From positions 1 through 38,308 of IMG/VR virus record IMGVR_UViG_3300038701_001077: DNA of 38,308 nt. One strand, given 5' to 3'. The stretch comes from a virus. Both the position numbers and the translations under genes were made by a program. Numbering within the stretch: position 1 is the first letter of the stretch; each line of letters begins with the position of its first letter. Under the pieces are notes generated by a model. That model was not told where the DNA came from. It searched no databases and saw nothing but the letters and a program-made list of their open reading frames with translations. Below are positions 23,207-30,249 of this stretch, in pieces.

Positions 23207-23359
23207 TCACTCCCTCGCCAAGTCTTTGGTTGCAATGACGCGCGCCTGATCGTGAGCCGCCATGGCCCGTTCGCAGGCGGCTTTCACGTCAGCGGCGCGG
23301 ATGACGTGCTTGACCTTGCCCATGCTCGGGACGGCAAGGATCACTTCATAGCGGTTCAT
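23207..23359 (-). CDS. 50-aa hypothetical protein
   Basis: ATG 23359 overlaps the stop of the DnaA-domain-IV gene (ATGA), and the stop lies two bases before the next start with its Shine-Dalgarno inside the end of this gene. The sequence starts 'MNRYEVILAVPSMGKVKHVI' and continues 'RAADVKAACERAMAAH', a small alpha/beta protein resembling short phage proteins with a beta strand and one helix. Function unknown. Confidence 0.6.
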   Translation of the reverse strand: MNRYEVILAVPSMGKVKHVIRAADVKAACERAMAAHDQARVIATKDLARE

Positions 23360-24129
23360 TGCGCGGCCTCCGCTGCCCACGGCTCTATCGGGAGCGTGAT
23401 GGGTATCTGCCGGGTTGTCGCGCTGCTGTAGACCGCATGTGTCGCGTCTGCGTAGACAGTGCGGGTTGCGGGGCGCTCTGAGGGGGGCTGTGGGGCTTTT
23501 GGCAACCGCCAACGCATCATCTGCTTGGACATGTCCCCCTCGACCAAACCAGCATCGCGCAGCTTGCGCATCCGCATCCCAACGTGTCCGGGACTTCCAC
23601 CCGGCATCTGGTCTGCGATTTCGCGCGCGAACTTCGGGCCATCGCTTAGAATAGCCAAGACGCGGTCTTCGAAATCGGAAGCGTAGTCCGTTTTATCGAA
23701 TGCGCCCGGCAAACCCCAAAGCGTTGACTTCGCCTGCAACTGGCTGTCGATGATGTTGTCATTCCGAAGCCAGCGAAGGCGACAAGCAACGTGATGCACA
23801 GACATATGCGGGGCGACGATATCCCGAACCTGCGACGCAAACAGCGGCCCGGATTTCAGAGCTTTGATAACGTCTTTCGCAAATGTATCGTCTGTCTTTG
23901 TCATTTCGGATGCCTCCGATTGTATTGCATGGTGAACGCTGGTCTGGTCTCGGTTCATGACCTTGGCGATTGCCATCTTGTCACCGAGGCGCATGCGATA
24001 GGCTTTGGCCATTGCTGCGTGACGGGCCTGGACAATTTCCGCCTTGCGGCAATGGCCGAGGATATCTTCGACGGTGACGCCAGCGTCCTTTGCCGTTTGC
24101 GCGACGACTTGGTGGATTGCCCGGCTCAT
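23356..24129 (-). CDS. DnaA domain IV fused to two winged-helix domains
   Basis: 257 aa. Residues ~13-70 match the C-terminal DnaA-box-binding domain of DnaA: 'DILGHCRKAEIVQARHAAMA' and the signature-like 'NRDQTSVHHAI'. No AAA+ domain is present. Two winged-helix-like segments follow: ~84-145 ('DDTFAKDVIKALKSGPLFAS', 'CRLRWLRNDNII') and ~153-212 ('FEDRVLAILSDGPKFAREIA', 'MRMRKLRDAGLV'). It could bind DnaA boxes to steer or block host initiation, or serve as phage replication or regulatory protein. It lies just downstream of the O-like and P-position genes, overlapping the latter (ATGA). Confidence 0.72.
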   Translation of the reverse strand: MSRAIHQVVAQTAKDAGVTVEDILGHCRKAEIVQARHAAMAKAYRMRLGDKMAIAKVMNRDQTSVHHAIQSEASEMTKTDDTFAKDVIKALKSGPLFASQVRDIVAPHMSVHHVACRLRWLRNDNIIDSQLQAKSTLWGLPGAFDKTDYASDFEDRVLAILSDGPKFAREIADQMPGGSPGHVGMRMRKLRDAGLVEGDMSKQMMRWRLPKAPQPPSERPATRTVYADATHAVYSSATTRQIPITLPIEPWAAEAAQ

Positions 24130-24569
24130 GCCTGACGCCCTTCCGGCATCTTGCGCGGATCAAACCCAGCTGCGCGCAGAATCTCTGCGGCGGTCTCGCG
24201 GTCCACCGGCTTGCGCTCCGGTTCCGGTTCGGCCTTCGGCATCTGCGCCGCGACCTTCCGGCCTCTGGCTTGCTTGAGAAGCCCGGTGATATCACCAGGC
24301 GTCGGGCGGCGTCGCGGGTCATCGCGGTTCCATTTACGCAGCGCCCAGACAACTTGCTCGCGGGTCCACTCCTGCAATTCGTCGCACCACCATGCGAGTT
24401 GAGCGGCGCGGATTTCCTCGGCCTCGTGCGGCTGAAAATAGGCGCTCAGAACCACCTTCACCTCAGAAGCAATCGCTTGACGGTGATCGGCCAGCTCTTG
24501 CGGCGAAAGCGATTTGTCGTGCTGTGGAGTCGGCGTCGGGATGTCGCGGCGAACCAATGCGGTTGTCAT
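24126..24569 (-). CDS. 147-aa replication-associated protein (lambda P position)
   Basis: ATG 24569 has GGAGG five bases upstream. The central part ('VVLSAYFQPHEAEEIRAAQL', 'WWCDELQEWTREQVVWALRK', 'NRDDPRRRPTPGDITGLLKQ') is helical and recalls helicase-loader or primosome-type phage proteins in which a short 'RRRPTPGDI' segment follows a helical bundle. The gene overlaps the 3' end of the O-like gene by 107 bases, as expected of an O-P pair. I infer a helicase loader or adaptor. No ATPase motif is present. Confidence 0.6.
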   Translation of the reverse strand: MTTALVRRDIPTPTPQHDKSLSPQELADHRQAIASEVKVVLSAYFQPHEAEEIRAAQLAWWCDELQEWTREQVVWALRKWNRDDPRRRPTPGDITGLLKQARGRKVAAQMPKAEPEPERKPVDRETAAEILRAAGFDPRKMPEGRQA

Positions 24570-25170
24570 TCGGGCCTCCAATCTTTTCGGGGAATACGCC
24601 CTGCCATCCGTTCTCGATGCTGAGATCAAAAACGGCGTCCGGGTCAGGATGATTTGCCAGCTTGGAAACGAGGCGCTTGGCGGCCTCATGGGTCAGCGGT
24701 TTTTTCATCGCCTTGCGATGGGCTGCGAAGTCTCGCGCCGTGTCTGGCCTAACGACTTGGCAGAGAACGTCCGCAGGCGTTTCCCTACTCTTTGACGGTT
24801 CTATGGGGGTTCTTAACGGTTCGGGTGCATCTGCTGCGGGGTTTTCTGCATCCATCTGCGGGGTTTCTGCATCCATCTGCGGGGGTGCATTTCCTGCGGG
24901 GTGCATCTGCTGCGGGGTTTTTATCACGTATAGGTTGCAGTTTTTGCGCCCGCCTCCGGTCTCGATTTGCAGCCATCCGTCAGCTTCAAGTCGGCGAAGA
25001 ACCGCTTGGGCGCCTCGCTCCGATAGACACGTTCTGCGGCAAATTCCGGCGATGCTTGGCCAGCACTCGCCGCCCTCGTTGGCGTAGTCCGCAAGCGCGA
25101 GTAGGACAAACCTGTCGGACTGACGCAAAGGCCCATTTTCCCAAATCTGCGCCATCAGTTTGATGCTCAT
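24463..25170 (-). CDS. O-like replication initiator with HTH domain
   Basis: 235 aa; GGAGTAGGGA precedes the ATG and holds the methyltransferase stop. Residues ~6-70 are a winged helix typical of phage replication proteins: 'LRQSDRFVLLALADYANEGG', 'CWPSIAGICRRTCLSERGAQ', 'VLRRLEADGWLQIETGGGRK'. A Pro/Ala/Asp-rich linker (~84-125) follows, encoded by five iterons, then a C-terminal domain (~140-235). Layout, with an N-terminal DNA-binding domain and origin repeats inside the gene, matches lambda O. It should bind its own iterons to start phage replication. Confidence 0.78.
   Translation of the reverse strand: MSIKLMAQIWENGPLRQSDRFVLLALADYANEGGECWPSIAGICRRTCLSERGAQAVLRRLEADGWLQIETGGGRKNCNLYVIKTPQQMHPAGNAPPQMDAETPQMDAENPAADAPEPLRTPIEPSKSRETPADVLCQVVRPDTARDFAAHRKAMKKPLTHEAAKRLVSKLANHPDPDAVFDLSIENGWQGVFPEKIGGPNDNRIGSPRHPDADSTARQIAFAARAGRSPSSDCF
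24826..24917. repeat. Five iterons, probable phage replication origin
   Basis: Five direct repeats with consensus TGCAT-N3/4-CTGCGGGG start at 24826, 24847, 24868, 24886 and 24902 (periods 21, 21, 18, 16). Copies 1 and 5 are identical (TGCATCTGCTGCGGGG), copies 2 and 3 are identical (TGCATCCATCTGCGGGG), copy 4 is TGCATTTCCTGCGGGG. They lie in the middle of the O-like gene and encode its linker, as the lambda ori iterons do in O. A T-rich stretch (24917-24922 and beyond) flanks them. Confidence 0.8.
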
Positions 25171-25173
25171 TCC

Positions 25174-26301
25174 CTACTCCGCCGCAAACAGGTCAGAGCC
25201 GTGCTGTTCTGCCTCTTGCAGGTTAAGGTTGGCCTGCGCGGCATACTCGGGTTTCAACTCGAAACCGATATACTTCCGACGCGCCTTCACCGCCTCATAG
25301 CCCGTCGACCCGATGCCGTTGAACGGGTCCATGACCACATCACCGGGTCGCGTATAGAGGCGCAGGCACTTGCGAATAACGTCAAGCTGCAGCGGGCAAA
25401 CGTGCTTTTCGTCGTTCGCACCTTTGGCATTGCGGAAGTTGCGCAGGACGTTGCCTTGCTGGATATCCATCCAGACCGGCGATGCCAGCTTTTGCCATTC
25501 CATCACGTCAAACTCTGCGTCCTTGATGAGTTCGGTCAATACTTCGTCTGGTGGAGATCCGGCGCAAAGCCCTTGGCGCGTCAGGTCGTCAAGCCATTCC
25601 CTTGCGATGCGCAGAGCTTCTTTTGAAACAACAGGAACGCGCTCATAAATCGGATCCCAACCAAATCCGCAGCAGTCGTTTTCATCGGGTATATTTTCGC
25701 CATTGACGACGCCATCACAATCTCCGCACGACCATCCAGTAATTTTTGATGTGGTTCCAGTTTCCGGTGCCGCGTGTTGGATCGGACGCTCGTTTGGTGC
25801 GTCCTTGCGAAAGAACAGCATATAGTCCGGCATCCCGACGCGGTTCATGGCGCTGTCTTTGCGGATCTGCTTGTAGAGCAAGCCGATTGCCTTGGTGCGC
25901 TGCATTTCGACTACCGGGTCTTTCCAGATCGTCGCGCGGCCATGATAGACCAGCCCCGCCGCCGTATGCGCCCGGATAAGGTCGCCTGAAAAGTCTTGCA
26001 GCCCGATGGCCCCGTGCTTGCCCTTGCGCATGGGAAGGTCTGTGCAGTGAACACATGCGATGCGGCCAGGACGAAGAACCCGCGTCAGCGCGTCGGCAAA
26101 GAACGCATACTGCTCCATGAATGCGCCGCCTTCGCCAGCGTTGCCAAGGTCGCGCTCGCTGTCGCTGTAGACAAACAGATCCCCGAACGGTGGAGAAAAA
26201 ATGGCACAATCTACGCTGCTTTCAGGCATGGCATACATACCCTCGATGCAGTCGCTGTTGTGTAGCGCCCAAGAGATTCCTTGATATTCTGGTTCCTTCA
26301 T
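25174..26301 (-). CDS. DNA methyltransferase (N4/N6, beta-class order) with Cys insert
   Basis: 375 aa. ATG 26301 is preceded by GAGGAATAAAGGC, where the helicase stop lies, so this start beats an upstream one. Motif IV is 'SPPF' (36-39) and motif I 'DPFNGIGSTG' (325-334): catalytic motif before SAM-binding motif, the beta order. Ser in motif IV favours N4-cytosine, but N6-adenine is possible. Residues ~189-216 carry Cys192, 195, 210 and 211 ('GWSCGDCDG', 'ENDCCGFGWDP') in a locally AT-richer stretch. No restriction nuclease gene is nearby, so it is an orphan enzyme, coupled to the SNF2 helicase. Likely roles are protection from host restriction or marking of phage DNA. Confidence 0.88.
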   Translation of the reverse strand: MKEPEYQGISWALHNSDCIEGMYAMPESSVDCAIFSPPFGDLFVYSDSERDLGNAGEGGAFMEQYAFFADALTRVLRPGRIACVHCTDLPMRKGKHGAIGLQDFSGDLIRAHTAAGLVYHGRATIWKDPVVEMQRTKAIGLLYKQIRKDSAMNRVGMPDYMLFFRKDAPNERPIQHAAPETGTTSKITGWSCGDCDGVVNGENIPDENDCCGFGWDPIYERVPVVSKEALRIAREWLDDLTRQGLCAGSPPDEVLTELIKDAEFDVMEWQKLASPVWMDIQQGNVLRNFRNAKGANDEKHVCPLQLDVIRKCLRLYTRPGDVVMDPFNGIGSTGYEAVKARRKYIGFELKPEYAAQANLNLQEAEQHGSDLFAAE

Positions 26302-26305
26302 GCCT

Positions 26306-27688
26306 TTATTCCTCTGTCCTAATCCACTTGGGAAACGCCAGATCAAGCGGTCGGTCATATCTCACCCTGACCGCCGCTTGAGACTGAGCACGGCGCATTG
26401 CCTCACTCATTCGACGCTTCATTTCTTCGTGCTTTTCGGCCTTGCCGTGAATTGCTCGCCAGATAGCGGCCTCAGTGTCTGCAATCACAATGTCATTGCG
26501 GACGCGCTCAGTTTGCCCAAAGCGATGCGACCGGCGGACGGCTTGGTAATGCTGCTCATATGAAAAGCTGATGCTGGCAAAAACCGCATGGGCGCAGTGC
26601 TGCCAATTAACGCCGAAACCTGCCAGCTTTGGCTTAGTCACGATGGCCCTATACTCGCCATCCGCAAACCCCAGGAGCCGGGCCTCTTTTTCCTCTGGCT
26701 TCTGGTCGCCGCGAACCTCAACCGCTCCGTCGATCATCGAAGTGAGCAACGCACTTTCGTCGTTGGTTTCGCACCAGACCGTGACGGGCTTGCCGTGGTT
26801 CGCCAGTTCCGCCGCGCGCTCGCAACGGTCCTGCATGGTCAGCCGCTTTTCCTTGTGAAAGCTGGTCGCGCTCAGTTCAGGAATGCGAAACAGCATGTCC
26901 TGTTCAGCATCGGCTTGGCGATCGGCCTCGACCTGATGCACGCGCCGATCAATCTCGGGCAGGATGTAACCCGCATCATCGCCGCCAAGGTCGCTTGGAA
27001 GCGTGGCGCAGCGAGACCATGACGCAACCCAAGACCAGAAGTCCTCTTGCGCGTGACCTTTCAGTCGCCAGTCCTGCGATGCTGTTGACGTGTCGTTGAT
27101 GAACCACTTGGAAAGCATTTCCTGTTGACGCATCACGCCAAGAAATTCGGCATGGTTGCCAAGTTCCATATGGTCATTCGGGCTTGGCGTGGCGGTCGCG
27201 GCCAACTTGAAATGCACGTCCTTGAATGCGTCCATCAAGAGATTTCGTGTGCGGCCGGCAAACGATTTCAAGATGCTGCTTTCATCCAGCACAACGCCGC
27301 CGAACGCTTGCGGGTCGATCTTGGGCAGCCGCTCATAGTTCGCCACCATGACACCATCGCCCACTTCGGACTGTTCGCGAATCTGCCTCGCGTCGATGCC
27401 AAACTTGCGACCCTCGCGGATCATCTGGCCCGCGACTGCAAGAGGTGTTAGTATGAGCACGGGTTTGCCGGTTTCCTCCGACACTTGCCGCGCCCATTCC
27501 AATTCGATGAAAGACTTGCCAAGCCCAGTGTCGAGAAATGCCGCGCTCTTTCCGACTTCCAACGCGTATGTCAGCGCTGCAAGCTGGTGGCCCTTCGCCA
27601 TGTCATTGATTGGCTTGGGGCGCATTCCGTTCTTGCACACGGTCAATGCTTTTTGGGCGATGAAATCTCTGTATTTCTGAATGCTCAT
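26306..27688 (-). CDS. SNF2-family DEAD-like helicase/translocase
   Basis: 460 aa, the compact phage form. Motif I 'DTGLGKS' (53-59), motif II 'DESS' (135-138), motif III-like 'ATATPSPND' (~164-172), and the SNF2-type motif VI 'QAVRRSHRFGQ' (382-392). There are no accessory domains beyond the two RecA lobes. It should translocate on duplex DNA and remodel protein-DNA or branched structures. The ATG overlaps the RusA stop (ATGA) and the methyltransferase follows after four bases; this helicase-methyltransferase pairing recurs in phages. Role in replication, recombination or counter-defence is not settled by the sequence. Confidence 0.88.
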   Translation of the reverse strand: MSIQKYRDFIAQKALTVCKNGMRPKPINDMAKGHQLAALTYALEVGKSAAFLDTGLGKSFIELEWARQVSEETGKPVLILTPLAVAGQMIREGRKFGIDARQIREQSEVGDGVMVANYERLPKIDPQAFGGVVLDESSILKSFAGRTRNLLMDAFKDVHFKLAATATPSPNDHMELGNHAEFLGVMRQQEMLSKWFINDTSTASQDWRLKGHAQEDFWSWVASWSRCATLPSDLGGDDAGYILPEIDRRVHQVEADRQADAEQDMLFRIPELSATSFHKEKRLTMQDRCERAAELANHGKPVTVWCETNDESALLTSMIDGAVEVRGDQKPEEKEARLLGFADGEYRAIVTKPKLAGFGVNWQHCAHAVFASISFSYEQHYQAVRRSHRFGQTERVRNDIVIADTEAAIWRAIHGKAEKHEEMKRRMSEAMRRAQSQAAVRVRYDRPLDLAFPKWIRTEE

Positions 27689-28074
27689 TCTGCTGCCTCC
27701 TTCGCTTCCCGCGTCGGCAGGCGAACGTGCACAAGCACCGCCCCGCCCTTAACGCGGTCGGAAAACTGGTCAGGCCAGCGCGGCTGAAACCCTCGGTCAT
27801 CGCAGCCCATCGCATCGGCAATCCCGTCGATGTAGGCTTTGACCGTGTCAGGCATGTTCTGCAAATCAGGGCGAGACTGCGGCGGCGGCGAAAAATGGAA
27901 CTCAAGCACGGCTTCCGGGATTGGCGATCGAAGGCCAGAATTTTGAGCCATTAGCCTTGCCTCTGCGCGGGCCTTCTTCACGGCTTTGGCCCGATCGCCC
28001 CAATGCACCCGCCGGTTTCGCCATAGCGCCGGCGCAGGCCAAGGAAGCCGGATCAGGTATTCGGTCGCGCTCAT
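27685..28074 (-). CDS. rusA: RusA-like Holliday-junction resolvase
   Basis: 129 aa, normal for RusA. Starts with a strand-rich 'IRLPWPAPALWRNRR'. The catalytic core has 'SRPDLQNMPDTVKAYIDGIA' and 'GCDDRGF', giving the acidic residues Asp70, Asp83 and Asp92/93 that bind metal in RusA. It would cut four-way junctions made during recombination or replication so that linear DNA can be packaged. The ATG overlaps the stop of the GcrA-like gene and its stop overlaps the helicase start. Confidence 0.85.
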   Translation of the reverse strand: MSATEYLIRLPWPAPALWRNRRVHWGDRAKAVKKARAEARLMAQNSGLRSPIPEAVLEFHFSPPPQSRPDLQNMPDTVKAYIDGIADAMGCDDRGFQPRWPDQFSDRVKGGAVLVHVRLPTREAKEAAE

Positions 28075-28265
28075 GAAAGGCGCGCTGCTGCTGGTTTGTC
28101 TGCGTGGCGGTAGATGACGCCTGCAACGGCTTCCCGGCTGACGCCGACCGCCTGCGCGATCTTGGCGTAAGTCAGGCCGCTATTGCGCAGCCGTATGATT
28201 TTCTCATTGCGGGTTTCGTCCTCGCCAAGGCGATGCTTCCAGCGGCTTGTTCCGTCTCCGGCCAT
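28071..28265 (-). CDS. Small HTH protein, GcrA-like
   Basis: 64 aa from ATG 28265, with AGGAG seven bases upstream. The HTH 'KIIRLRNSGLTYAKIAQAVG' plus 'VSREAVAGVIYRH' follows the pattern of GcrA (L..G.S...IA..L..VSR.AV...HR). GcrA is an alphaproteobacterial regulator that works with sigma70 at GANTC-methylated promoters; phage copies are common. Only the HTH part is present, without the C-terminal sigma-binding domain of full GcrA, so a plain phage DNA-binding protein is equally possible. Might tune phage or host transcription. Confidence 0.6.
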   Translation of the reverse strand: MAGDGTSRWKHRLGEDETRNEKIIRLRNSGLTYAKIAQAVGVSREAVAGVIYRHADKPAAARLS

Positions 28266-28299
28266 GGTGTCGCTCCTGCTATGTGTGGATTGTGTGAAC

Positions 28300-28328
28300 A
28301 GGGGCGGGCGGTGAGAGCACCCGCCCCT
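28300..28328. repeat. GC-rich inverted repeat upstream of GcrA-like gene
   Basis: AGGGGCGGG and CCCGCCCCT form a 9-bp stem with an 11-base loop, in the 159-base gap between the HNH/AP2 gene and the GcrA-like gene. No U-tract follows on either strand, so it is not a standard terminator. It could be a 5' leader structure or a protein site. Next to it, GTGTGGATT-GTGTGAA (about 28284-28299) resembles half-sites of the repressor operators but is not palindromic. Confidence 0.5.
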
Positions 28329-28424
28329 GACTGACCCCGTTCGCAAATGCCGTGCCTGTTTGGGCATAGGTCCGGGGGTGTTCCGTTCTCAGGGCAACGC
28401 ACAGGCGCTGGCCAAAAAGCGGGC

Positions 28425-28937
28425 TCATTTTGTTTCCCCGACAAGTGCTGGAAAATTCGGCCTTGCAAACGCTCCATGCAACGCAACTGCCATTTTATCA
28501 TATTCTCGGGCTGCTTCTGCATGGCACAAAAACACACCGCTGCGATGCGATTTGCCATCTTTTCTGCAAGCAGCTCTCCACTTGTCGTGGTGCTTTTCAA
28601 CGCCAAGAAAAGGTGATTGCGCGCCGTTTTTCTTTTTCCTGTTTGCCATGTTTTGCGCATGGCTAGCTTCGCGCAGATTTTGTATCCTATTGTCTAAAGG
28701 ATCGCCATTAATGTGGTCTATAAGCTCGACAGGCCATCGCCCATAAAAAATTGCAAACGCAATCCGATGCGCCATGTAGTGCCGCCCATAAACTCTTACG
28801 CGAACTCCATGCTTTCCTTTGTTCCCCGCTTCACCAAAGCTTCTTTTCCCGGTGGCAACCTTCCAAAACAACTTCCCTGATACAGGGTCGTAATTAAAAA
28901 GTCTGGCGGCCTCTTTTGGGCTAATTGAATGTTTCAC
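28425..28937 (-). CDS. HNH endonuclease with AP2 DNA-binding domain
   Basis: 170 aa from GTG 28937. N-terminal 'AARLFNYDPVSGKLFWKVAT' and 'HYMAHRIAFAIFYGRWPVEL' lead into the HNH core 'IDHINGDPLDNRIQNLREAS'. An AP2-type domain follows ('SPFLGVEKHHDKWRAACRKD', ending 'AAREYDKMAVALHGAFARPN'). These are free-standing homing-type endonucleases of phages. The DNA is clearly AT-richer than its neighbours and sits just behind a strong terminator, both signs of recent insertion by a selfish element. It could favour spread of its own locus during mixed infection. Confidence 0.85.
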   Translation of the reverse strand: MKHSISPKEAARLFNYDPVSGKLFWKVATGKRSFGEAGNKGKHGVRVRVYGRHYMAHRIAFAIFYGRWPVELIDHINGDPLDNRIQNLREASHAQNMANRKKKNGAQSPFLGVEKHHDKWRAACRKDGKSHRSGVFLCHAEAAREYDKMAVALHGAFARPNFPALVGETK

Positions 28938-29119
28938 ATCAGACCCTTTGCAAAAAAGCCCCCGATGCGGAGGAGAGCGCACCGGGGGAGTTTACGACGG
29001 CGAACAGGTGAAACCGTCGAGGCAGGGAGAGTCGCCGGGGTCACATGGGCAACCGCCCCGGCATCGGTTGGGAGGAGGCACATGAAGCCTCGCCCGTGTG
29101 ATTTGGTGGGGGCGGTCAT
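28934..29119 (-). CDS. Doubtful 61-aa frame across the terminator
   Basis: ATG 29119 overlaps the stop of the HTH gene (ATGA) and the TGA overlaps the GTG of the HNH gene (GTGA), a spacing like real genes here. But the frame runs through the terminator hairpin, the residues ('GFMCLLPTDAGAVAHVTPAT', 'RRRKLPRCALLRIGG') match nothing I know, and its end is likely chance. Listed so that the 178-base gap is accounted for. Confidence 0.25.
   Translation of the reverse strand: MTAPTKSHGRGFMCLLPTDAGAVAHVTPATLPASTVSPVRRRKLPRCALLRIGGFFAKGLM
28952..28988 (-). terminator. Strong rho-independent terminator behind cro-like operon
   Basis: On the minus strand CCCCCGGTGCG pairs with CGCATCGGGGG: 11 continuous pairs with one G-U, an 8-base loop, and CTTTTTTGC immediately after. 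It stops leftward transcription after the Cro-like and HTH genes, in the position of lambda tR1. Expression of everything further left must pass it or start beyond it. Confidence 0.82.
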
Positions 29120-29430
29120 GCCGCCTCCGTCAAGTATTCGCAGGCACCGGGGATCGACGCCATTAGATAGGACGCGGCCCAGCCTTGCGGAGCGTTGACC
29201 CCGTTGAGCCATTGGCGGGCAGTCTTCTCGTCCACGTCGAAAAACGCCGCGACCTCGATGCTGTTGCGGAAATGGCCAGCCAGAAACGATGCCCAACGAT
29301 CTGGATAGACCCGGCGGAAGGCGCGGGGATCGCAGGGGCGACCGGACAAAAGCCCGGACAATCCCCCGGACGACAGCGCGCCGTGCGGTGTGCCATGGTC
29401 TGACTGTGAGGTTTGGCGCGGTTTTGTCAT
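29116..29430 (-). CDS. Small HTH-like phage protein after cro
   Basis: 104 aa. The ATG shares its A with the stop of the cro-like gene (TGATG). Residues 1-35 are polar and likely disordered. Residues ~36-90 ('RRVYPDRWASFLAGHFRNSI', 'EVAAFFDVDEKTARQWLNGV', 'NAPQGWAASYLM') look like a HTH domain frequent in small prophage proteins of Rhodobacteraceae. It is the second gene of the leftward early transcript, the place of lambda cII, and is followed by the terminator. A regulator of lysis-lysogeny is a guess from position. Confidence 0.62.
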   Translation of the reverse strand: MTKPRQTSQSDHGTPHGALSSGGLSGLLSGRPCDPRAFRRVYPDRWASFLAGHFRNSIEVAAFFDVDEKTARQWLNGVNAPQGWAASYLMASIPGACEYLTEAA

Positions 29431-29642
29431 CACGCAGCGTCCCCACCTGACAGCGCTTCAATGGCGCGCAACCGTTCGCGCACCTTCTCCGCTGTCTCAG
29501 GCCAGACGCGGCACCCGCTCCGAAGACGAGTATAAAATTTCCCGCCTTGTCCGGCGCGTTCGCCTACCGTGCTTGGCGACATTCCGACGCGGGCCGCTGT
29601 GGCCTCGATGTCGTCAGCGAGTTTTTGTGCTTCGGTGATCAT
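29430..29642 (-). CDS. Cro-like regulator
   Basis: 70 aa from ATG 29642. HTH: 'LADDIEATAARVGMSPSTVG' and 'ERAGQGGKFYTRLRSGCRVW', then a short helix 'ETAEKVRERLRAIEAL'. It is divergent from the XRE repressor gene across an 88-base control region. No Shine-Dalgarno precedes the ATG, and the promoter candidate would start RNA at or next to it, so the message may be leaderless. Upstream in-frame TTG and GTG codons lie inside the operator and are unlikely starts. Predicted role: binding to the same operators to favour lytic growth. Confidence 0.68.
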   Translation of the reverse strand: MITEAQKLADDIEATAARVGMSPSTVGERAGQGGKFYTRLRSGCRVWPETAEKVRERLRAIEALSGGDAA

Positions 29643-29649
29643 GAAGGCA

Positions 29650-29678
29650 ACGCTAGTGTGATAAATCACACATTGCAA
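29650..29678 (-). promoter_or_regulatory. Leftward early promoter candidate (PR-like)
   Basis: On the minus strand: TTGCAA (29678-29673), a 17-base spacer fully occupied by the operator, then TAGCGT (29655-29650). The -35 matches TTGACA at 4 of 6, the -10 matches TATAAT at 3 of 6. The start of RNA would fall near 29643, next to the cro-like ATG. Weak by consensus, but its layout mirrors the rightward promoter. Confidence 0.5.
29656..29671. promoter_or_regulatory. Operator 1 (left), GTGTGATAAATCACAC
   Basis: Perfect 6-bp arms GTGTGA/TCACAC with a TAAA centre. Matches operator 2 at 30172 except for two central bases. Lies in the spacer of the leftward promoter candidate, where a bound repressor would block RNA polymerase. 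Confidence 0.8.
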
Positions 29679-29697
29679 GGGGATATTTCACATTCGC
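29679..29697. promoter_or_regulatory. Secondary operator half-site with shared 10-mer
   Basis: Contains TCACATTCGC (29688-29697), found again in the same orientation at 30154-30163. With GGGGA nine bases upstream of TCACA it forms a degenerate copy of the operator, centred 22 bp from operator 1, about two helix turns. Likely an auxiliary repressor or Cro site. Confidence 0.5.
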
Positions 29698-29699
29698 AA

Positions 29700-29713
29700 C
29701 AGCCTTCGGGCTG
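29700..29713 (+). other. UUCG-tetraloop hairpin before repressor gene
   Basis: CAGCC-TTCG-GGCTG makes a 5-bp stem with a C(UUCG)G tetraloop, an unusually stable RNA hairpin, 17 bases upstream of the repressor ATG. If transcription starts upstream it would sit in the leader and may limit ribosome access or stabilise the mRNA; otherwise it may be a DNA feature of the promoter. Confidence 0.5.
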
Positions 29714-29730
29714 CGATAAATAGGTAAACT

Positions 29731-30054
29731 ATGGATGAAGACGAAAATCTGCGCCGAAATCTTCAGCGAATGATGGCTGAAAACGGCTGGAACGCCGCCG
29801 CGCTTTCTTTGGCTGCTGGGCTAAACCGTCGGGCGATCAAGGACATCCTGGAAGGTCGAGCCGCGAGCCCGAAACTGTCGACCGTGTTTAAGATTGCCGC
29901 CGCCCTGCCATGCGATCCGTGCGAACTAATGGGGCTTGGGGCTCGTGTTTCCTTGGCCCCTGCGCTTCTGCGTCTTCTTGAGCAATACGACGAAGTCGAG
30001 CAAGAACAACTTGCACAGGCACTGGCCGCCCTTCCGCGTCACCCCCGGACATAG
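29731..30054 (+). CDS. XRE-family phage repressor (CI-like)
   Basis: 107 aa. HTH at ~8-62: 'LQRMMAENGWNAAALSLAAG', 'LNRRAIKDILEGRAASPKLS', 'TVFKIAAALPCDPCELM'. The C-terminal 35 residues ('LLRLLEQYDEVEQEQLAQAL') are one helix, probably for dimerisation. There is no S24/LexA-type peptidase domain, so it should not self-cleave when RecA is activated. It lies between the two operators, divergent from the cro-like gene, and is transcribed toward the recombination operon. Shine-Dalgarno is weak (AGG). Probable maintenance repressor of lysogeny. Confidence 0.75.
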   Translation: MDEDENLRRNLQRMMAENGWNAAALSLAAGLNRRAIKDILEGRAASPKLSTVFKIAAALPCDPCELMGLGARVSLAPALLRLLEQYDEVEQEQLAQALAALPRHPRT

Positions 30055-30097
30055 CCAAAATACCAGCCAGAATCTGATAGTCGCTCAATCGGTTAAT

Positions 30098-30119
30098 GCT
30101 ATCCATAACTTAGGATAGC
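30098..30119. repeat. Perfect inverted repeat of unknown role
   Basis: Arms GCTATCC and GGATAGC (7 bp, perfect) with the 8-base centre ATAACTTA, in the gap between repressor stop and the rightward promoter. No U-tract on either side, so it is not a typical terminator. Its arms differ from the GTGTGA operators, so it may bind another regulator. Confidence 0.6.
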
Positions 30120-30142
30120 CAAAATCTACTTTCGTGATAAAG

Positions 30143-30163
30143 TGTGAAGTTTCTCACATTCGC
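30143..30163. promoter_or_regulatory. Upstream auxiliary operator on rightward side
   Basis: TGTGA (30143-30147) faces TCACA (30154-30158) with six bases between, followed by TTCGC; the 10-mer TCACATTCGC repeats the one at 29688. It lies just upstream of the -35 of the rightward promoter, about 29 bp from operator 2. Confidence 0.55.
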
Positions 30164-30165
30164 CC

Positions 30166-30194
30166 TTGACTGTGTGATCTATCACACCCATTCT
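30166..30194 (+). promoter_or_regulatory. Rightward early promoter (PL-like)
   Basis: TTGACT (30166-30171), 5 of 6 to the -35 consensus, a 17-base spacer, then CATTCT (30189-30194), 3 of 6 to the -10. Operator 2 occupies the spacer exactly. It should drive the rightward operon beginning at 30250, giving a ~50-base leader. Confidence 0.62.
30172..30187. promoter_or_regulatory. Operator 2 (right), GTGTGATCTATCACAC
   Basis: Perfect 6-bp arms GTGTGA/TCACAC with a TCTA centre, near-identical to operator 1. Occupancy by the repressor would silence the rightward early operon. Confidence 0.8.
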
Positions 30195-30249
30195 GCTCCC
30201 CATCACCGCCGCATCCGTCACCCGGCGCGGCACAGATGGGAGACTGACA

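Follow-up and report, generated by a model that had tools for sequence, protein, structure and literature searches.

We propose that the O-like replication initiator gene of this phage carries its own origin of replication. The DNA analysed here, referred to as the window, is 38,308 nt long. Five direct repeats (iterons) lie in the stretch of the gene that encodes a linker between two protein domains. Judged by its anatomy and by the precedents of lambda, SPP1, pSK41 and pPR9, this array is very probably the replication origin. We consider it highly likely that gene and array form a self-contained initiation module, in which the N-terminal domain of the O-like protein would bind the iterons inside its own gene, open the DNA and recruit a helicase. 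The features are as follows.

24463–25170, minus strand: O-like replication initiator gene, 235 aa (ORF, PF13730, phrog_391)
24916–25170, minus strand: predicted N-terminal winged-helix DNA-binding domain, about aa 1–85 (AlphaFold2 model)
25003–25023, minus strand: codons 50–56 (SERGAQA), at the beginning of the predicted recognition helix (51–64), co-varying with the iteron arms
24902–24917, minus strand: iteron 1, 16 nt
24886–24901, minus strand: iteron 2, 16 nt, other reading frame
24868–24884, minus strand: iteron 3, 17 nt, 6-nt centre
24847–24863, minus strand: iteron 4, 17 nt, 6-nt centre
24826–24841, minus strand: iteron 5, 16 nt, other reading frame
24786–24825, minus strand: candidate unwinding region with three AACC elements, GC 0.50
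24814–24821, 24804–24811 and 24793–24800, minus strand: AACC elements, 10 and 11 bp apart
24562–24780, minus strand: conserved C-terminal domain, about aa 131–203 (identity to relatives, phrog_6451)
24126–24569, minus strand: gene for a 147-aa protein, probably a helicase loader of the lambda-P/SPP1-G39P type; overlaps the initiator gene

The gene encodes a winged-helix N-domain, then the repeat-bearing linker, then the C-domain. That it is O-like, as a preliminary description of this DNA had said, is borne out by a match to PF13730 (HTH_36) at residues 15–67 (E 5.9e-13; 48.8 bits against a Pfam cut-off of 25) and to the PHROG family phrog_391, ‘replication initiation O-like’ (E 4.4e-23). The AlphaFold2 model of the N-domain has a mean pLDDT of 91.6, with helices at residues 40–47 and 51–64 and wing strands at 67–70 and 80–83. 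Its Foldseek and VIA neighbours are general winged-helix proteins, including the ‘initiator’ 4pt7 (Z 8.6), and Foldseek also lists 5kbj, a ‘Rep-DNA complex’; we take both to be staphylococcal RepA proteins. A sequence search of the PDB with the N-domain returned no initiator at a meaningful E-value, the top rows being repetitive designed or HEAT-repeat proteins. The C-domain matches the primosomal family phrog_6451 at residues 140–196 (E 1.4e-5) and is probably the partner-recruiting part of the protein.

On the minus strand, 24826–24917 consists of five copies of CCCCGCA-N3/4-(A/G)ATGCA, all inside the gene running from 25170 to 24463. The preliminary description had placed five direct repeats of 16–17 bp in the O-like gene with periods of 21, 21, 18 and 16; the coordinates are exact, and the periods hold on the plus strand from 24826. 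In the direction of the gene, the start-to-start distances are 16, 17, 21 and 22 bp. Tandem Repeats Finder detected the array independently. No exact copy of the repeat occurs elsewhere in the window, and CCCGCANNNRATGCA with at most one mismatch is matched five times there, three of them inside the array, with 0.89 expected.

Are these repeats in the DNA or in the protein? A proline-rich repetitive linker could have grown by slippage, with no function at the level of DNA; the linker is of low complexity, and PQMDAE occurs in it twice. The preliminary description had the repeats encoding the linker, which they do, and had named PQMDAE as the repeated unit, which holds for copies 3 and 4 only, the hexapeptide being a by-product of those copies. 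Copies 1, 3 and 4 share one reading frame, and copies 2 and 5 use another, where they encode PAGNA and PAADA. The use of two frames argues for a repeat in the DNA rather than in the protein, and two or three frames are used in 26 of 62 distinct linkers of the family. We also recoded the linker with synonymous codons, sampled according to the codon usage of the gene so that the protein stayed the same: five copies appeared in 0 of 20,000 trials (mean 0.27, maximum 3). Together with the co-variation described below, these results speak against a protein-level repeat; frames and synonymous null lead us to reject it, and we leave it next to no probability. The five repeats are DNA-level elements. 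Under the stricter dyad rule of the family (5-nt centre), three of the five copies pass, with a synonymous-null p of 0.010; copies 3 and 4 fail because their centre is 6 nt, not 5 nt.

The repeat sequence is not, as had been supposed, new to this phage: the same motif is present in many phages, among them the Pseudomonas phages Itty13 and Riah. Viral contigs were scanned with a DNA-only pattern, CCCGCA-N2..4-RATGCA-N0..12-CCCGCA, that uses no protein information. At least 119 loci were found, of which 64 hold an N-domain ORF as called by the N-domain profile (63 with a stricter protein cut). In all 64 the pattern lies inside that ORF on the sense strand, and N-domain ORFs make up 5.4% of the bases in the scanned loci. 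The remaining 55 of the at least 119 loci may be chance matches. Over the 62 distinct linkers, the window's included, the first copy starts at a median of nine codons past the N-domain match, and in the relative L002 the motif is kept though the encoded protein reads quite differently.

A second set was chosen by protein: 240 loci with the N-domain, the window and four named phages, 245 genes in all, of which 239 had enough linker and fell into 87 clusters under 85% identity. In 65 of the 87, the linker contains at least three xxx-N5-xxx′ dyads that share an arm triplet around a 5-nt centre. The triplet is GCA in 42 clusters, GAA in 16, GAC in 4 and another in 3; the other 22 clusters show other geometries, fewer copies or none. 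An earlier set comprised 81 genes with 54 distinct linkers; at least three dyads were found in 63% of these linkers, compared with 1.4% after synonymous recoding and 0% in the N-domain used as control. Two observations concern more distant relatives. The replication-type proteins L378, L402, L406 and L408, which presumably resemble RepC-type plasmid initiators, have a dyad around TCCGGAAACCGGA or a close variant past the N-domain match. Arsenophonus nasoniae plasmids (hits H41–H49), several of them 28–48 kb in size and possibly phage-plasmids, also carry a relative of the initiator.

The letters of the iteron arms change with the recognition helix of the protein that they lie in. The code was counted in 71 classed clusters, leaving out those with fewer than two same-arm N5 dyads or with other arm letters. 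Ranked by mutual information with arm class, the top four alignment columns are residues 56, 51, 50 and 53, which all fall at the beginning of the predicted recognition helix. Arg56 accompanies arm base C in 8 of 8 training clusters (0 of 65 without Arg56) and in 11 of 11 held-out ones (0 of 43 without), a rule whose wording was revised after the held-out rows had been looked at. Thr50 or Asp51 is found in 18 of 19 GAA clusters and in none of 46 GCA clusters. Of 106 clusters whose arm starts with G, 103 have Arg52. Within class GCA, the outer base is G in all 14 clusters with Arg55, and all 28 outer-C clusters have Gln or His at 55. Held-out cases of Arg55 are few: two of three have outer G, and three outer-G cases lack Arg55. 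The window's helix, SERGAQA, agrees with its CGCA arms, and the sister loci L152 and L178 pair SERAVRD with GGCA arms and SERAVQS with CGCA arms, respectively. In six loci that combine Arg56 with Thr53 (L501, L498, L570, L571, L574 and L575), the arms are GCC or GGC and not GAC; the inner base C is constant there and the middle base varies.

The code was scored on two held-out sets. The first comprised 61 loci from genomes, and the rows scored, by eye, had less than 85% identity and at least three dyads of known class; the arm class was right in 11 of 13 (9 for a constant guess of GCA) and the outer base in 4 of 8. The second began with 154 loci, 86 of which were dropped as too close; the rest formed 53 clusters, 25 of them testable. 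Here the arm class was right in 19 of 25 (13 for the constant guess) and the outer base in 7 of 9. Sorted by identity, read by eye, 15 of 16 were right at 60% or above and 4 of 9 below. The specificity rule loses strength under about 60% identity and does not carry far. Independent pairs on supported branches were concordant for three traits (3 of 3, 2 of 2 and 2 of 2). For a fourth, Lys56 in GAA versus GCA, a mean of 1.2 of 2 pairs agreed and the rest showed no difference. For none of the four was the outcome contrary or significant, the pairs being too few for significance and the tree poorly resolved.

Because helix residues and arm letters co-vary, there is strong support for the N-domain binding the iterons of its own gene: the N-terminal winged helix would grip the five iterons in the DNA of its own linker. 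Might the repeats instead be the target of another factor, for instance a repressor, or the protein with DnaA domain IV encoded at 23356–24129? The latter gene lies two genes downstream, and the DnaA-type DNA-binding domain of its product (PF08299, E 1e-9) would suit such a role. The arm letters, however, track the initiator's own recognition helix, and the window contains no DnaA box (TTATNCACA); we regard this explanation as extremely improbable. An iteron plasmid origin with DnaA boxes was likewise rejected, the box being absent from the window.

The N-domain and its iterons travel as a unit. Identity of the C-domain to that of the window is 79–80% in L002 and L003 and 73% in L004, while identity of the N-domain is 48%, 31% and 22%, respectively. 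The C-domain is thus kept in L003 and L004 where the N-domain differs, so N-domain and linker were replaced as one piece. With the probable origin inside the gene, N-domain and iterons are, by this comparison, inherited and exchanged as one specificity unit, and the C-domain can stay.

The array is followed by a region of lower GC. In 63 clusters of the family, GC is 0.41–0.44 in the 40 nt past the last iteron; the iterons themselves are at 0.68 and the N-domain at 0.59. The dip in the window is mild, 0.50 in the 40 nt after the array versus 0.59 in the N-domain, and GC skew, as a sign of an origin, shows no clear switch at the array. Iteron spacing in the family is ordered: in 48 arrays it stepped from short (15–18) to long (20–24) 31 times and from long to short never. 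Past the last arm, typically starting 5 nt beyond it, at least one AACC element is found in 68 of 80 clusters. The strict form, AACC[AG][TC][CA]A, occurs 1.89 times per linker versus 0.34 after recoding, mostly 10–11 bp apart. At least two elements are present in 32 of 54 linkers, and 29 of these 32 use two or three frames. By the strict motif, the AACC array is pronounced where the iterons are GCA or GAA, and weak in the six GAC clusters. In the window only the last element (24793–24800) fits the strict form, the other two being degenerate. The bound iteron array may open this adjoining lower-GC stretch with its AACC elements.

Binding by the N-domain, which the co-variation supports, would also suit an operator, with the O-like protein binding the repeats only to regulate its own operon and replication starting elsewhere. 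We find this very unlikely on several counts. The array is deep in the coding region, far from the start of the gene; a search limited to the sigma-70 consensus found no promoter-like site in 24000–30200; the GC dip follows the array at a fixed place across the family; and a loader-like gene comes next. An operator role may exist in addition to the origin role.

A more far-reaching reading of the family is possible, and we offer it tentatively: PF13730 initiators would read their origins by a compact code and, jointly with it, the AACCRTCA array would serve as a second sequence-specific element. In this code residue 56 would specify the inner arm base, residue 55 the outer base and residues 50/51 the middle base, with the near-invariant Arg52 corresponding to the near-invariant G. 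The AACCRTCA array, which persists while iteron classes change, would be an ordered opening or loading strand with a role comparable to that of the DnaA-trio, and a constant component of the initiation complex would recognise it. If the code is true, sequence could reveal what type of origin an uncultured phage has, and also which phages share each other's origins or exclude them.

The next gene, which overlaps that of the initiator, probably encodes a helicase loader of the lambda-P/G39P type. A profile of 21 relatives of the 147-aa protein (A7, built with two rows omitted) matches SPP1 G39P (1no1, E 4.9e-4) and a 233-aa ‘helicase loader’ (8v9t_V, E 0.085). The best VIA match of the protein's model is lambda P (9oa1_Z; Z 7.9, rmsd 2.7 over 88), with the next row at Z 5.9; G39P is not among the VIA rows displayed. 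Foldseek gave nothing below E 0.6 for the model, and a PHROGs search with the protein gave no significant family. Together with the C-domain of the initiator, this putative loader could bring in the host's DnaB-type helicase.

By analogy, the data support a mechanism like that of lambda-type in-gene origins, with sites in the linker of the initiator gene, dyads and an adjacent loader gene. Lambda O, ori-lambda and P, as the sources describe them, have dyad iterons in mid-gene, a lower-GC opening region and a loader gene that comes next (PMC7466680, PMC5043065). The window shares the iterons and, probably, the loader gene; the low-GC region has its counterpart in the window's family and is mild in the window itself. 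The iteron letters and layout of lambda were taken from the lambda record. The N-domain families differ, PF04492 for lambda O and PF13730 for the window, and a profile comparison shows no likeness between them; PF04492 (Phage_rep_O) has no match in the window's protein, whereas lambda O itself matches at 5.7e-36. The opening tract of lambda is plain A-rich, without the AACC array found in the window's family. SPP1, with gp38, oriL and the loader gp39, is described as having direct repeats and an AT-rich opening region in its initiator gene (PMC6316719). It supplies its own DnaB-type helicase, gp40, according to the same account (PMC6316719); in contrast, profile searches of ten replication-region proteins of the window gave no DnaB match. 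In the RepA_N plasmid pSK41, the N-domain is reported to bind boxes central in rep, the origin encoding the linker; in pPR9 the N-domain and origin region of pSK41 are replaced by a pfam13730 N-domain and the origin region belonging to it, an exchange as one piece like that in the window's family, and the mini-replicon replicates (PMC5703833). These are, unlike the window's phage, Firmicutes plasmids, and their CTD is described as contacting primase (PMC5703833). Pseudomonas phage MD8 is described as having an O-like protein (gp56) with repeats in its gene and a P-like neighbour (gp57); the available part of that account gives no iteron sequence, code or second array (PMC8508860). The Pseudomonas phages phi2 and TC7 are matches of the window's protein.

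The preliminary description had likened the array to ori-lambda within O, called it a probable replication origin and suggested that initiator and origin form a self-contained pair. The resemblance is upheld by linker repeats directly before a GC dip, mild in the window, and a probable loader gene next, and the pair is supported by the family co-variation and by replacement of the N-domain while the C-domain is kept; the reading as a probable origin is, on these comparisons, likewise supported. The in-gene arrangement was already known. The helix/iteron code and the AACCRTCA second array look new: we found no report of either in open-licence PMC text, a search outside which most subscription papers lie. 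Lambda-type in-gene origins have been worked out in few phages, and this one family provides dozens of distinct natural initiator/origin pairs, including close sisters of different specificity, in which helix residues and iteron letters change together. Two questions become testable: how specificity can shift jointly in an initiator and an origin located in the same piece of DNA, and what function a conserved array with 10–11 bp spacing has where otherwise a plain AT-rich tract would be expected. The family also offers a sequence-based way to find origins in metagenomic phages.

Elsewhere in the window are a P22-like portal, a large terminase and an integrase gene, from which the phage is probably temperate. 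The integrase gene (PF00589; 37073–38269, plus strand), found at the window's right end, agrees with a temperate lifestyle. Upstream of the initiator, a DNA methylase gene (25174–26280) adjoins a helicase-like gene (26306–27688), both on the minus strand; both products match portions of a single long PHROG family (phrog_16), giving the impression of a single protein divided in two. The gene with DnaA domain IV, on the minus strand, also encodes a second helix-turn-helix (PF12840). In Sulfitobacter phage phiGT1, the initiator C-domain occurs as a stand-alone protein of 118 aa without a DNA-binding domain (L214, 1495–1851), and a DnaA domain IV gene likewise lies downstream of it.
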